Translations under genes and position numbers: made by a program
Notes under the pieces: model-generated
The model's input: the letters and a program-made list of their open reading frames with translations, nothing else
What the model was told of the DNA's origin: nothing
Databases searched by the model: none
Assembly: GCF_009909235.1 (NCBI RefSeq)
Contig: NZ_JAAAPO010000002.1
Location: 1 to 64,000 of the forward strand
Source of the DNA: Novosphingobium ovatum
GTDB lineage: Bacteria > Pseudomonadota > Alphaproteobacteria > Sphingomonadales > Sphingomonadaceae
DNA length: 64,000 bases
Reading direction: 5' to 3'
Shown here: positions 34,764-42,462 of the stretch, piece by piece
Position numbering within the stretch: position 1 is the stretch's first letter
How the letters are laid out: each line of letters starts with the position of its first letter

Positions 34764-36290
<1,527 letters not shown>

Positions 36291-36298
36291 GGTGATGG

Positions 36299-36562
36299 GT
36301 GAATTTGTTTTCCGCCCTCTTTGCAATTGTCTGGACAGTTGCCGCTTATGGCATCGCGATGTCTGGGTGGCGGCAGGCAAGAAAATGGTGTGCAGACGGT
36401 GTGATTGATAACGGCGTGGGGGTCCGCATTCGTCGGGATGAGCGTCCGGTCGCTTTCGCGCTAGCATATCGAGGTGCGCAGGCTATTTCTTTGTTTGGGT
36501 TTGCATTTTTCCTTCCTGCCGGCGTTGTCGCCACATTCATTTGTATTGTGAGGCTGATATGA
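36299..36562 (+). CDS. Small membrane protein inside the propionyl-CoA operon
   Basis: 87 aa from GTG 36299, with GAGGTGAT directly upstream. It has two membrane segments, residues 1-22 (NLFSALFAIVWTVAAYGIAM) and about 58-84 (SLFGFAFFLPAGVVATFICI), flanking a basic loop with RIRRDERP. It begins 9 nt after pccB and its stop overlaps the mce start by 4 nt (ATGA). This strongly indicates real translation and coupling. The region is clearly less GC-rich than pccB and mce. I recognise no family and no function in propionate metabolism is known to me for such a protein. Confidence 0.75.
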   Translation: MNLFSALFAIVWTVAAYGIAMSGWRQARKWCADGVIDNGVGVRIRRDERPVAFALAYRGAQAISLFGFAFFLPAGVVATFICIVRLI

Positions 36563-37011
36563 AACTCGGACGTTTGAACCATATCGGCGTGGCGGTGCCC
36601 TCGATGGCGGACGCCATTGCTTATTACCGCGATGTGATGGGCGCGCAGCTGATCACCGAGCCTTTCGACATGCCCGCACAGGGCGTGAAGGTGGCCTTTG
36701 TGAACACGCCTGACGCCCATGGCGAATTGTCCGGCACGCAGATCGAGCTGATCGAGGCGATCCCGCTGCCCGATGGTTCGGCCAGTCCGATCGCTGGTTT
36801 CATCGCCAAGAACCCCGCCGGTGGCCAGCACCACCTGTGTTACGAGGTCGAGGATATCGAGGCCGCCCGCGAATGGTTCACCGCACAGGGCAAGCGCATC
36901 CTTGGCCCCACGCGCATTGGCGCGCATGGCACGCCGATCTTTTTCCTGCACCCCAAGGACATGCTGGGGCAGCTGACCGAAATCATGGAAACGCCGAAGG
37001 GGCATCACTGA
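36559..37011 (+). CDS. mce: Methylmalonyl-CoA epimerase
   Basis: 150 aa from ATG 36559. It converts (S)- to (R)-methylmalonyl-CoA between carboxylase and mutase. The VOC fold is visible: first metal ligand His8 in [11 protein letters not shown], the central [19 protein letters not shown] with metal-binding His, [20 protein letters not shown], and the final ligand Glu141. The mutase gene starts 1 nt after the stop. Placement between PccB and mutase makes the assignment secure. Confidence 0.95.
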
Positions 37012-37012
37012 C

Positions 37013-39142
37013 ATGGCCGATATCAACGACTGGCAGGCGCTGGCGACCAAGGAGGTCAAGGGCCGCGATCTGAACTGGCAGACGCCCGAAGGCATCACGG
37101 TCAAGCCGCTGTACACGGCCGATGACGTCAGCGTTGATCCGGGCCTGCCGGGCTTTGCCCCGTTCACGCGCGGCGTGCGCGCATCGATGTATGCCGGGCG
37201 CCCCTGGACGATCCGCCAATACGCGGGCTTCTCCACCGCCGAGGAATCGAACGCCTTTTACCGCCGCAATCTGGCGGCGGGGCAAAAGGGCCTCTCGGTC
37301 GCCTTCGACCTTGCCACGCATCGCGGTTATGACAGCGACCACCCCCGCGTGGTGGGCGACGTGGGCAAGGCGGGCGTCGCCATCGACAGCGTCGAGGACA
37401 TGAAGATCCTGTTCGACGGCATCCCGCTGGACCAGATGTCGGTCAGCATGACGATGAACGGCGCGGTGATTCCGATCCTCGCCTTCTTCATCGTGGCCGG
37501 TGAGGAGCAGGGCGTTGACCGCAAATTGCTGGACGGGACCATTCAGAATGACATTCTGAAGGAGTTCATGGTCCGCAACACCTATATCTATCCGCCCGAA
37601 CCCAGCATGCGGATCATTTCGGACATTTTCGGCTATACCAGCCGCGAAATGCCCAAATTCAACAGCATTTCCATCTCCGGCTATCACATGCAGGAAGCTG
37701 GCGCGACGCAGGTGCAGGAACTGGCCTTCACCATCGCGGACGGCATGGAATATGTGAAATATGGCGTGGCTTCGGGCCTCGACATTGACAAGTTCGCGGG
37801 GCGTCTGTCGTTCTTCTTTGCCATCGGCATGAACTTCTTCATGGAAGTGGCCAAGCTGCGCGCCGCCCGCGTGCTGTGGCACCGCGTGATGACCAAGCTG
37901 GGCGCCAAGGACGAGCGCTCCAAGATGCTGCGCACGCACTGCCAGACCTCGGGCGTGTCGTTGCAGGAGCAGGACCCCTACAACAACGTCATCCGCACCA
38001 CGATCGAGGCGATGGCCGCGATGCTGGGGGGCACGCAGTCGCTGCACACTAACGCGCTGGACGAAGCCATCGCGCTGCCCACCGATTTTTCGGCCCGCAT
38101 CGCCCGCAACACGCAGATCATCATCCAGGAAGAGACCGGCATGTGCAATGTCGTCGATCCGCTGGGTGGCAGCTATTACATTGAATCGCTGACGCAAAAT
38201 CTGGTCGACCGGGCGTGGGAAATCATCGAGCGCGTGGAAAGCGAAGGCGGCATGGCCAAGGCCGTGGCTGCTGGCTGGCCCAAGGCGATGATCGAGGAAG
38301 CTGCCGCTGGCCGTCAGGCCCGTGTGGACCGTGGCGAGGATGTCATCGTTGGCGTCAACAAGTACCGTCTGGCCAACGAGGACCTGCTGGAAACGCTGGA
38401 AGTCGACAATGTCGCCGTGCGCGAAGGCCAGATCGCCCGCATCAAGGCGGTGAAGGCTTCGCGCGATGAGGGCAAGTGTCAGGCCGCCTTGGCCGCGCTG
38501 ACCGAGGGCGCGCGTGGCAATGGCAACCTGCTGGAACTGGCCGTAGAGGCCGCCCGTCACCGCGCCACGCTGGGCGAAATTTCCGACGCGATGGAGGCGG
38601 TGTTTGGCCGCCATGGCACCGTGCCGACCCCGGTCAAGGGCGTCTATGGCGCGGCCTATGCGGGCGACAGCCGCTACCAGCAGGTGCTGGATGGCGTGGC
38701 CGCCGTCACCCGCCGGTTGGACCGCGCGCCGCGCATGCTGGTGGCCAAGATGGGGCAGGACGGCCACGACCGTGGCGCCAATGTCATCGCCAGCGCCTTT
38801 ACCGACATGGGCTTTGACGTGACCAGCGGGCCGCTGTTCCAGACGCCCGAGGAAGCGTGCAAGCTGGCGCTGGAAAAGGACGTTGACGCGGTCGGGGCCA
38901 GTTCGTTGGCTGCGGGTCACAAGACGCTGATCCCGGCGCTGATCGGCCTGTTGCGTGAGGCGGGCCGCCCCGACATCAAGGTGGTCGCCGGTGGTGTCAT
39001 CCCGCCGCAGGACTATGACTACCTGCGTGAGGCCGGCGTGCAGGGCATCTATGGTCCGGGCAGCAATGTGGTGGAATGTGCCGCCGACATGTTGCGCCTG
39101 CTGGGCCACAACATGCCGCCGCTGGGTGAAACCACGGAATGA
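37013..39142 (+). CDS. scpA: Methylmalonyl-CoA mutase (B12-dependent, single large subunit)
   Basis: 709 aa. It rearranges (R)-methylmalonyl-CoA to succinyl-CoA with adenosylcobalamin. The N-terminal TIM barrel carries [20 protein letters not shown] and [15 protein letters not shown]. The C-terminal cobalamin domain has the DxHxxG motif with lower ligand His585 in [12 protein letters not shown], then [12 protein letters not shown] and [15 protein letters not shown]. The enzyme is of the large-subunit or homodimer type; no small subunit or MeaB chaperone gene is present in the window. Confidence 0.96.
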
Positions 39143-39244
39143 TCCGTCCAAATGAAACGGGGGCCGGGCGGGGCTTGATGCAGATGGGCACACACGCCTA
39201 TGCGGCGCAATCCTTCCCCCTCCCGGATTCTGGAGTACCCCACC

Positions 39245-40303
39245 GTGTCTGACACCCCCGCCACCGCCACCGCCCCGCGCAACGACTGGACGCGCGAGGA
39301 AATCGCCGCCCTGTTCGACCTGCCGTTCACCGAGCTGGTGTTCCGCGCGGCGCAGGTGCACCGGGACAACCACCCGGCCAACGAGGTGCAGCTCTCGACG
39401 CTGCTGTCGATCAAGACCGGCGGCTGTGCCGAGGATTGCGGCTATTGCAGCCAGTCGGCATCGGCCAACAGCGGGGTCAAGGCGACCAAGCTGCTGGAAG
39501 TGCAAAGCGTGTTGCAGGCCGCCGCCCGCGCCAAGGATCAGGGCAGCACCCGGTTCTGCATGGGCGCGGCCTGGCGCAACCCCAAGGACCGCGACATGCC
39601 CGCCATCATCGAGATGGTAAAGGGCGTGCGGTCGATGGGGCTGGAAACCTGCATGACTCTGGGCATGCTGGAGCCGCATCAGGCCGAGATGCTGGCGCAG
39701 GCGGGGCTGGATTACTACAACCACAATATCGACACCTCGCCTGAAAAGTATGAGGAAATCACCAGCACCCGCACCATGGGTGACCGTCTGGACACGCTGG
39801 CCAATGTGCGCTCTGCCGGGCTGAACGTGTGCAGCGGCGGGATCGTGGGCATGGGCGAAACGCGCGCCGACCGCGTGGGTTTCATCCACACGCTGGCGAC
39901 GTTGCCGGGCCATCCGCAATCGGTGCCGGTCAACGCGCTGGTCCCGGTCAAGGGCACGGTGCTGGGCGATATGCTGGCCGATACGCCGCTGGCCCGGATT
40001 GATGACGTGGAATTCGTGCGCACCGTGGCGGTCGCGCGCATCACCATGCCGCAATCGATGGTGCGCCTGTCGGCGGGCCGCGAAAGCATGTCCGAAATGA
40101 CGCAGGCCATGTGCTTTATGGCAGGTGCCAACTCGATCTTTACCGGCGACAAGCTGCTGACCGCGCCCAATGCGGGCGATGACAATGACGCGGCGATGTT
40201 TGCCCGGCTGGGGCTGAAGGCGATGGCCCTGACCCAGACTCAGGCCGAGGTCGAGGCGCTGAACATGCCCAAGGGCTGTGTGAAGCTGGAACAGGTGATC
40301 TGA
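39245..40303 (+). CDS. bioB: Biotin synthase (radical SAM)
   Basis: 352 aa from GTG 39245, with GGAG 10 nt upstream; an ATG at 39200 is possible but less likely. It inserts sulfur into dethiobiotin. The radical-SAM cluster Cys61, Cys65, Cys68 ([13 protein letters not shown]), [13 protein letters not shown] and GGIVGMGET are typical, as is the [2Fe-2S] Arg/Cys region [11 protein letters not shown]. The other bio genes (bioA, D, F) are absent. Its position between mutase and pccA suggests supply of biotin to propionyl-CoA carboxylase. Confidence 0.95.
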
Positions 40304-40440
40304 TTTTCCCTTGGGGCGCGCGCCGCCGCAAAGGGGTTCGAATGCGCCGGGGACATGCCCCGGCAACAGGGTTTGACAGTTTGGCAGCGGGCGGCGCGTT
40401 ACAGGGCGCTCACCGCTGTGACCTTTGAGGAATGTGCGTG

Positions 40441-42462
40441 ATGTTCAAGAAAATCCTCATCGCCAATCGTGGCGAAATTGCTTGCCGCGTGATCAAGACG
40501 GCGCGCCGCATGGGTATTGCAACGGTTGCGGTCTATTCCGACGCCGATGCCCGCGCGCCTTTTGTACAGATGGCCGATGAGGCGGTGCATATCGGCCCTT
40601 CGCCCGCCGCGCAGTCCTACCTGATCGCCGACAAGATCATCGCCGCGTGCAAGGCCACCGGCGCGGACGCGGTGCATCCGGGCTATGGCTTCCTGTCGGA
40701 ACGCACCAGCTTTGCCGAGCAACTGGCCGCCGAGGGCATCGCCTTTGTCGGGCCGCCGGTGAACGCGATTGCCGCCATGGGCGACAAGATCGAGTCCAAG
40801 AAGCTGGCCAAGGCGGCGGGCGTCAATGTCGTCCCCGGCTTTGTGGGCGAGATCGAGGACACCGACCACGCCGTGCGCATCTCGGACGAGATCGGCTATC
40901 CGGTGATGATGAAGGCATCGGCCGGCGGCGGCGGCAAGGGCATGCGTCTGGCCTATAACGAGCAGGACGTGCGCGAGGGCTTCCCCGCCGTCAAGCGCGA
41001 GGGGCTGAACAGCTTTGGCGATGACCGCGTGTTCATCGAGAAGTTCATCCTGAACCCGCGCCACATCGAGATCCAGATTCTGGGCGATCAGCACGGCAAT
41101 GTGCTGTATCTGAACGAGCGCGAATGCTCCATCCAGCGCCGCCACCAGAAGGTGGTCGAAGAGGCCCCGTCGCCCTTTGTCACGCCCAAGATGCGCAAGG
41201 CCATGGGCGAACAATGCGTCGCCCTGTCCAAGGCGGTGGGCTATTACAGCGCGGGCACGGTCGAACTGATCGTGTCGGGCGCGGACCCCAGCGGCGAATC
41301 GTTCTATTTCCTGGAAATGAACACCCGCCTGCAGGTCGAACACCCCGTGACCGAGGCGATCACCGGCATCGATCTGGTCGAACAGATGATCCGCGTGGCC
41401 GCTGGCGAAAAGCTGTCGATGACGCAGGATGACATCAAGATCGACGGCTGGGCGATTGAAAACCGCGTCTATGCCGAGGATCCCTATCGCGGCTTCCTGC
41501 CCTCGACCGGGCGCCTGACGCGCTATCAGCCGCCGGTGCAGGGCTGGGCCGATGACGGCGCCGAGAATGGCCGCCGCGGCATTGACGGCGTGCGCGTCGA
41601 CGATGGCGTGTACGAGGGCGGCGAGGTCTCCATGTTCTATGACCCGATGATCGCCAAGCTGATCACTTGGGGCGAAACCCGCGACGAGGCGGCGGACAAG
41701 CAGATCGCGGCGCTGGACGCGTTCGAGATCGAGGGCCTTGGCCACAACATCGATTTCGTCAGCGCGATCATGCAGCACCCGCGCTTCCGCAGCGGCGAAC
41801 TGACCACCGGCTTCATCGCCGAGGAATATCCCGAAGGCTTTACGGGCGCTGCCACCAGCGACGCGCTCAAGGCCGATCTGGCGGCCATTGCCGGCTTCAT
41901 CGCCACCGCGCGGGCCGATCGCGCGCTGCAGGTCAGCGACCAATTGGCCAACACGCTGGCCCCCAATGGCGCGTGGGCGGTCACCATCGATGGCGTGAGC
42001 CATGACGTGGTGGTGGACGCCGATGGCGTGGCGGTGGACGGCACCGACATTGATCTGGCGATGGAATACACCCCGGGCGACCGCTTGGTCGAGGCCGAGA
42101 TTGGCGATGAGATCATCACCATCAAGGTCGAGCCGATCCGCGCCGGTCTGAAGATGACCACGCGCGGCGCGATCCACAAGGTGTCGATCCTGCCCGCCCA
42201 TGTCGCGCCGCTGGCCAAGCACATGATCGAGAAGATCCCGCCCGATCTGTCCAAGTTCCTGATCTGCCCGATGCCGGGCCTGCTGGTCGCGCTGAACGTG
42301 GCCGAGGGCGACAAGGTGGAGGCGGGTCAGCCGCTGGCCGTGGTCGAGGCGATGAAGATGGAAAACATCCTGCGCGCCGAAAAATCGGCCACGGTCAAGA
42401 AGATCAACGCCAAGGCGGGCGAAAGCCTGGCCGTCGACGCGATCATTCTGGAACTGGAATAA
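40441..42462 (+). CDS. pccA: Propionyl-CoA carboxylase alpha subunit (biotin carboxylase + BCCP)
   Basis: 673 aa from ATG 40441, with GAGGA 9 nt upstream; ATG 40432 is in frame as well. The N-terminal biotin carboxylase starts MFKKILIANRGEIACRV, with ATP-grasp loop KASAGGGGKGMRLA and EMNTRLQVEHPVTE. A linker or BT domain (about 460-590) follows, then the biotinyl domain with Lys639 in VVEAMKMEN. Length and layout are those of PccA. Weak TTGACA at 40373-40378 upstream may give it its own promoter, since 137 nt separate it from bioB. Confidence 0.94.
   Translation: MFKKILIANRGEIACRVIKTARRMGIATVAVYSDADARAPFVQMADEAVHIGPSPAAQSYLIADKIIAACKATGADAVHPGYGFLSERTSFAEQLAAEGIAFVGPPVNAIAAMGDKIESKKLAKAAGVNVVPGFVGEIEDTDHAVRISDEIGYPVMMKASAGGGGKGMRLAYNEQDVREGFPAVKREGLNSFGDDRVFIEKFILNPRHIEIQILGDQHGNVLYLNERECSIQRRHQKVVEEAPSPFVTPKMRKAMGEQCVALSKAVGYYSAGTVELIVSGADPSGESFYFLEMNTRLQVEHPVTEAITGIDLVEQMIRVAAGEKLSMTQDDIKIDGWAIENRVYAEDPYRGFLPSTGRLTRYQPPVQGWADDGAENGRRGIDGVRVDDGVYEGGEVSMFYDPMIAKLITWGETRDEAADKQIAALDAFEIEGLGHNIDFVSAIMQHPRFRSGELTTGFIAEEYPEGFTGAATSDALKADLAAIAGFIATARADRALQVSDQLANTLAPNGAWAVTIDGVSHDVVVDADGVAVDGTDIDLAMEYTPGDRLVEAEIGDEIITIKVEPIRAGLKMTTRGAIHKVSILPAHVAPLAKHMIEKIPPDLSKFLICPMPGLLVALNVAEGDKVEAGQPLAVVEAMKMENILRAEKSATVKKINAKAGESLAVDAIILELE

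Follow-up and report, generated by a model that had tools for sequence, protein, structure and literature searches.

The gene located between pccB and mce in the propionyl-CoA operon of Novosphingobium ovatum is probably a passenger in a recurrent operon slot, one that would be exchanged laterally and kept compatible with translation of its neighbours by coupling. Genes of this slot were found precisely at the junction of pccB with the core gene that follows it, and they differ among close relatives; most of them form one reading frame that runs from at or near the stop codon of pccB to the ATGA start of mce. Recombination through the conserved genes on either side may bring small genes into the slot or swap those in it. 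Downstream translation would be kept intact by the double overlap, through coupling from pccB to the slot gene and from the slot gene to mce. The passenger would in this way gain operon expression at little cost. Its product would act on a target unrelated to propionate, for which envelope defence, orphan immunity or exclusion of phages or bacteriocins is offered as a tentative guess.

The slot gene and its operon

The window analysed is a 64,000-nucleotide stretch of the N. ovatum genome, on which the operon was found in the order pccB, slot gene, mce, methylmalonyl-CoA mutase, bioB and pccA, with gene names taken from domains (Table 1). The five neighbouring operon genes were all identified as metabolic with Pfam. 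The location of bioB within the pcc operon fits the biotin need of the carboxylase.

Table 1. Features of the slot gene and the surrounding operon (positions within the window)
Feature	Position	Strand	Basis
pccB, propionyl-CoA carboxylase beta subunit; upstream edge of the slot	34764..36290	+	Pfam Carboxyl_trans, E 6.6e-198
Shine-Dalgarno-like GAGGTGAT over the pccB stop	36289..36296	+	read from sequence
slot gene, 87-aa two-helix membrane protein (predicted)	36299..36562	+	ORF, hydropathy, leave-one-out family profile
predicted transmembrane helix 1, residues 2-24 (approximate)	36302..36370	+	hydropathy; AlphaFold2 helix 3-33
family motif RxExPxxFW, here R46-D-E48-R-P50-V-A-F53-A54	36434..36460	+	alignments A1-A3
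predicted transmembrane helix 2, residues 60-86 (approximate)	36476..36556	+	hydropathy; AlphaFold2 helix 46-86
GAGG, likely Shine-Dalgarno of mce, within the end of the slot gene	36550..36553	+	sequence; inference
mce, methylmalonyl-CoA epimerase, starting ATGAAA; downstream edge of the slot	36559..37011	+	Glyoxalase_4, E 1e-19; epimerase name from operon context
methylmalonyl-CoA mutase (mcm)	37013..39142	+	Pfam MM_CoA_mutase and B12-binding
biotin synthase bioB	39200..40303	+	Pfam BATS and Radical_SAM; gene name inferred
pccA, propionyl-CoA carboxylase alpha subunit	40432..42462	+	Pfam, including PCC_BT and Biotin_lipoyl

The slot gene begins with GTG and consists of 87 codons and a TGA stop codon (36560-36562), the latter lying inside the ATGA at which mce starts (36559). 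At its other end, a spacer of 8 nt separates it from the stop codon of pccB (36288-36290), the 3' end of which reads CCG TTG TGA. An earlier sequence-only reading of this DNA had placed the gene 9 nt after pccB; the tight spacing held, with the distance corrected to 8 nt between the two. The good ribosome site and the ATGA overlap with mce that it had described were both recovered, the former as GAGGTGAT, which ends 2 nt before the GTG and matches the usual 3' end of 16S rRNA (anti-Shine-Dalgarno). The gene was also found to be poorer in GC than its neighbours, as had been noticed before, with a GC content of 0.527 and a GC3 of 0.50 vs 0.61-0.64 and 0.79-0.84, respectively, for pccB, mce and mcm. 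In the slot of the window, a bridging frame arose by chance in 2.8% of 400 composition shuffles. On sequence grounds, the ORF is confirmed as a real gene-like feature.

Hydropathy analysis of the slot protein gave two peaks, at residues 3-21 (mean 1.97) and 66-84 (mean 2.33), with a basic loop between them, and a single-sequence AlphaFold2 model placed helices at residues 3-33 and 46-86 (mean pLDDT 72.7, from which the helical hairpin alone is to be taken). Both results uphold the two-helix membrane protein of the earlier reading. The protein is predicted to be a helical hairpin of the inner membrane, in which the basic loop would face the cytoplasm according to the positive-inside rule, with the RxExPxxF motif likely to lie at the start of helix 2.

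Contents and turnover of the pccB-mce slot

Loci read in this analysis are given L-numbers, and each species was represented in the sample by one genome. A match to mce (E <= 1e-30) was found in 128 of the 149 genomes sampled from the same genus. The region upstream of mce was read in 127 loci, with G001 and G023 (contig ends or partial) left out, and the pccB end was unreadable in eight of these, leaving 119 loci from 118 genomes (G025 gives two), that of the window included. In 34 loci, pccB was directly followed by mce, with gaps of 9-68 bp (n = 14), 193-430 bp (n = 19) and 1657 bp (n = 1), and in the other 85 a thiolase gene was located between them.

When the 119 slots were sorted by eye, 15 were found to contain a two-helix gene, eight another membrane ORF, ten another ORF and six repeat-like sequence, with no extra ORF in 80. 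Two of the 15 two-helix slots hold degraded or truncated copies (L064, L116), and L133 was tallied by its membrane ORF, an OsmC-like ORF (by eye) being also present in its second gap. Other contents included a DUF2158 protein (L058), an RNA_pol_A_CTD/HHH-like protein (L160) and a SHOCT protein (L148), and many slot genes, beyond the two-helix family too, resemble small membrane proteins by eye. Empty slots are short stretches, many of them with GGA or GGAG before mce. The stop codon of pccB was TGA in 15 of 20 filled vs 3 of 14 empty pccB-mce slots (Fisher p 0.0045, a test that ignores relatedness; L052 was scored as empty).

The distribution of these contents was examined on a quick tree of 119 rows, built from the PccB C-terminus and Mce. 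The filled or empty label required 27 changes, at least 13 of them forced by starred branches, while shuffled labels gave a mean of 32.9 changes, with 3 of 500 shuffles as low as 27. Slot filling shows some clustering by relatedness, though nothing close to a single origin. For the two-helix label, 14 changes were required over 15 rows, which is similar to shuffled labels. Within the clade of the window (ten rows, SH-aLRT 100), five slots are empty, four hold a two-helix gene (that of the window included) and one holds a repeat. Furthermore, in loci L063-L066, which share 92.5-95.0% identity at the pccB end and 94.4-97.0% in mce, the first slot is empty and the others, of 258, 250 and 230 bp, hold three different contents with an identity of at most 0.50. 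An open, in-frame remnant of 20 codons in L052 was found to resemble the joined ends of the gene in L046. This turnover among relatives agrees with the suggestion of the sequence-only reading that the gene is a recent arrival, and, as judged across these loci, propionyl-CoA metabolism does not include the slot gene as a conserved component. The very long branch of L069 on the tree is due to a frameshift that splits its pccB near codon 480, which is either an assembly error or real.

A divergent two-helix family at several operon junctions

Searches of Pfam, NCBIfam, PADLOC, PHROGs and PDB for a known family gave no match of weight. The slot protein had no match in Pfam at E <= 1, where the family of acyl-CoA carboxylase epsilon subunits (PccE) is represented, and none in NCBIfam. 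PADLOC-DB returned no family for any of the 12 proteins in alignment A1 (slot protein included), the best PHROGs match of the slot protein had an E value of 0.12, and no match was obtained among PDB sequences searched with profile A3. Matches of single members to DUF1664 (one of 12, E 7.5e-4), phrog_25364 (one of 18, E 0.0026) and ATP synthase subunit A (one of 33, E 0.0074) were taken as noise. The immunity protein family Sip4 (NCBIfam NF053812, cut-off 240 bits) gave no match to the slot protein and was matched by L197 alone of 33 members, at 18 bits and E 0.0022, which is a weak lead.

Homologues in the nucleotide data proved equally scarce. Among 61 related genomes searched with tblastn, the slot protein itself was the only credible match, the next best having an E value of 0.006. 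Other tblastn matches in its own genome had E values of 0.13 and 0.40, and a profile search there identified no paralogue at E <= 0.01 among the 38 of 68 candidates scored. Plasmids and phages gave no match, by which carriage on either was ruled out at the sensitivity of tblastn, and none was obtained when genome contigs were searched with the slot protein as query. None of the relatives was found to carry a close homologue in this slot. As expected of an ORFan or alien gene, the slot gene has no orthologue at its locus in close relatives, the 61 genomes giving none with tblastn and the slots differing in content.

By profile comparison, the slot protein can nevertheless be assigned to a two-helix family that is unnamed and very divergent and has the motif RxExPxxFW. 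The motif precedes helix 2 in alignments A1, A2 and A3 (12, 18 and 33 rows, partly chosen by place and motif), with P50 invariant in the 33 partly motif-chosen rows of A3. The slot protein has the layout of the family, namely two hydrophobic helices, a basic loop and the motif before helix 2, with A54 in the position of the final W. Its closest relative found was that of L069, from a slot between pccB and thiolase (39% across 54 residues; E 3e-11 in this pairwise search). Left out of the 36-member set, the slot protein scored 30.6 bits against the profile of the remaining 35 rows, and 21.9 bits when L069 was left out too, while none of 2000 segment-preserving shuffles (three segments) scored as high in either test (best 17.7 and 18.3). 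By this leave-one-out profile, the slot protein falls within the family. Other members left out in turn scored 6.6 (L069), 11.5 (L037) and 16.6 bits (L083), and the profile supports their membership weakly.

Profile A1 had matches at E <= 0.01 in at least 24 of 149 genomes of the genus, many of them being its own rows. Matches to A2 (E <= 1e-4) were identified in at least 29 of 298 genomes and at least 21 of 96 genera of the family, and A3 matched at least 3 of 289 genomes sampled from the class and at least 16 of 299 from the phylum, two counts that each include the genome of the window. A contig search with PccB gave 80 named loci, the nearest of them from Novosphingobium (92%), and profile matches among these were found in Sphingomonas oligoaromativorans (L271) and S. 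populi (L257). Outside the genus, members were located at the 3' end of pccB (identified by eye) in L188, L192, L193, L194, L197, L200, L205, L206 and L344. Enrichment at pccB is biased, since some of the rows used to build the profile were slot genes chosen by eye and by the motif. Members were also found between hisA and hisF (L177, L180, L209, L211, L225, L238, L245), between sufB and sufC (L208) and between sppA and a gene for a TPM protein (L173), with the neighbours of L208, L177 and L173 verified with Pfam. Many further family matches were in no clear operon, and some A2 matches (L214-L216) lacked a sensible reading frame. With regard to presence at the same place elsewhere, a point raised by the earlier reading, the gene was largely absent from homologous operons. 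Two-helix kin lie at the 3' end of pccB in a number of genera.

Ratios of dN/dS were 0.20 for the slot proteins of L200/L206 and 0.28 for those of L225/L245, indicating purifying selection in these relatives at the sequence level. A ratio of 0.02 was obtained for L049/L067, which belong to a different slot family, and ratios of 0.49 for L083/L108, on five differences, and 0.52 for L033/L040, at a dS of 1.36. Five further pairs were at or near dS saturation, including that of the window and L069 (dS 2.7).

The hisA-hisF junction, chosen after members had been seen there, was surveyed in the 30 best hisF loci, hisF having been matched in 142 of 149 genomes. A gap of more than 100 bp was found in nine of the 30, and in eight of these nine the insert is one frame that overlaps each neighbour by 4 nt. 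These eight comprise four two-helix genes (L218, L225, L238 and L245, the first of which is the same gene as L177), three GC-rich repeat-like inserts and one other ORF. Bridging frames were present in 13 of 19 pccB-mce slots, the other six not being bridged, and in eight of nine hisA-hisF inserts, vs 0.67 and 1.55 expected from composition shuffles. This excess shows coding and coupling together, because genes outlast shuffles in frame length anyway. The repeat-like bridging inserts (L219, L235 and L246 at hisA-hisF, L034 at pccB-mce) would speak for coupling alone, each of them being only mildly improbable, with chances of bridging of 0.22-0.41 each (0.26 for L034). The repeat-like insert of L106 has no bridging frame.

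Two control junctions were also measured. Between hisH and hisA, gaps of 70-148 bp were found in 6 of 24 measurable loci out of 30. Between mce and mcm, gaps were -14 to 8 nt in 10 of 10 loci of the window's clade, and 24 measurable loci out of 30 included seven with an enoyl-CoA hydratase-like gene (by eye; L041, L046, L047, L051, L055, L059, L060) and five with 126-156 bp and no ORF. Junctions besides pccB-mce and hisA-hisF thus vary too, and therefore no hotspot rate is claimed.

Alternative explanations and known systems

The sequence-only reading had offered tethering of enzymes to the membrane, or propionate transport, as roles for the protein. To our knowledge, the propionyl-CoA pathway has no such membrane component, and the view that the gene is foreign to the known pathway was accepted from this general knowledge. 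An accessory to the pathway, whether a tether for PccB or Mce, a transporter helper or a small regulatory subunit, would have to be replaced by analogues in relatives. The tight spacing to both neighbours is consistent with such a role, as are the membrane-like appearance of many slot genes of other families, an unrelated 72-aa protein between pccB and pccA in other proteobacteria (L287, L288, L300) and the small epsilon subunit of actinobacterial propionyl-CoA carboxylase (PMC13118682). However, the slot is empty in half the rows of the window's clade, is occupied elsewhere by unrelated ORFs (the DUF2158 protein, the RNA_pol_A_CTD-like protein) or repeats, and its protein here has no Pfam counterpart. 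A pathway-specific part is unlikely because kin occupy histidine, Suf and sppA operons, and the same evidence speaks against both tethering and transport; overall, we regard a role in the propionate pathway as very improbable. A different proposal is that the inserts have no protein function of their own, being landed DNA that is tolerated when a bridging frame happens to form and relays translation. High slot turnover, the GC-rich repeat-like inserts that bridge both junctions, the 20-codon bridging frame retained in L052 and the dN/dS values near 0.5 (L083/L108, L033/L040) would all suit this proposal. Against it stand a motif and two-helix plan that recur over very divergent members, the lower dN/dS of three other slot-protein pairs (0.02, 0.20 and 0.28) and the fit of the slot protein to the family profile, and it is considered unlikely.

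The passenger reading is preferred over these, and it may be narrowed to an orphan immunity or exclusion protein that is directed against a pore-forming effector, a bacteriocin or a phage and is housed in an expressed housekeeping operon. A small hairpin in the membrane, low GC, rapid turnover and dispersed positions would be in keeping with this, and an effector-immunity insertion has been published for the Serratia ilv cluster (PMC12669606). The match of L197 to Sip4 points the same way but is sub-threshold, far under the cut-off with 33 members scanned, and is not shared by the slot protein; in addition, the neighbouring operon genes are metabolic and PADLOC returned nothing for 12 members. 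This narrower form is possible, though on balance rather unlikely. A bolder version of the passenger reading, which is speculative and appears doubtful, is that sphingomonad housekeeping operons carry fixed exchange slots (pccB-mce, hisA-hisF and others), among which a large unnamed two-helix superfamily would circulate as interchangeable, translationally coupled cassettes; these would be inserted at stop/start overlaps by an unrecognised mechanism and would have a function in envelope defence in common.

If the passenger reading is true, gene order in a tight operon would be a poor guide to function for such small genes, some operon junctions would be natural entry and exit sites that spare the translation of their neighbours, and the settling of foreign genes in operons would become directly testable. 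New defence or immunity proteins might also be sought in a membrane family such as this, which is dispersed and fast-changing and has no named function.

Alien and ORFan genes in operons are reportedly discussed by Price et al. 2006 in 'The life-cycle of operons'. Such genes are known within operons (PMC10138114) and are like the slot gene in being foreign to the pathway and without wide orthologues. The present case differs in that an unnamed family occurs in several housekeeping operons, the slots of relatives differ and the inserts are mostly bridging. With respect to hisA-hisF, impA overlaps both genes in Mycobacterium tuberculosis and has the corresponding location in M. smegmatis (PMC2834668). 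Its start overlaps the hisA stop and its stop the hisF start, an arrangement shared with the sphingomonad inserts. It differs in being an inositol monophosphatase gene, in belonging to another phylum and in its presence in at least two mycobacteria (PMC2834668), whereas the sphingomonad contents are small, mostly unnamed and different between close relatives. Double-overlap insertion at hisA-hisF is not new as such, because the mycobacterial impA has been published.

Genes for the PccE/AccE epsilon subunits are located after pccB and are, like the slot gene, small genes beside it. In contrast to these subunits of actinobacterial acyl-CoA carboxylases (PMC13118682), the slot protein lacks a Pfam match, is a predicted membrane hairpin and comes from a slot that is empty in half its clade. 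The Ssp4/Sip4 genes of the Serratia ilv cluster also include one for an integral inner-membrane protein in an insertion within a metabolic cluster; Sip4, however, is predicted to have four helices and is paired with a toxin (PMC12669606), and only one distant member of the two-helix family matches it, weakly. In the portions of the literature searched, which were mostly outside subscription journals, no description of the two-helix family or of the pccB-mce slot was found.

A number of further small genes and modules were observed at these loci. A two-helix module was seen within longer membrane proteins in L191, L195, L199 and L212, with C-terminal TPR repeats identified by Pfam in L191 and the others looking alike. 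In L203, a serine-recombinase/resolvase-like ORF (by eye, at about 734-1312 of the reversed locus) lies upstream of the two-helix match. GC-rich repeat-like inserts were found at operon junctions in L074, L143, L219, L235, L246 and L034, several of them being bridging frames. A small ribbon-helix-helix/NikA-like protein (xTERVTFLT...) recurred between pccB and thiolase in L132, L147 and L150, where it is followed by a second small ORF, and between pccB and mce in L259 and L261; the NikA-like assignment comes from a Pfam match of the L132 protein only, below cut-off. Another small family (YALELEMCGxWxPE) was found directly upstream of mce, between pccB and mce in L049 and L067 and between thiolase and mce in L131. 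The 72-aa protein encoded between pccB and pccA (membrane by eye, RRGRxVRxHxIxAL...) was found in a Reyranella, a Rhodospirillales and another proteobacterial MAG.
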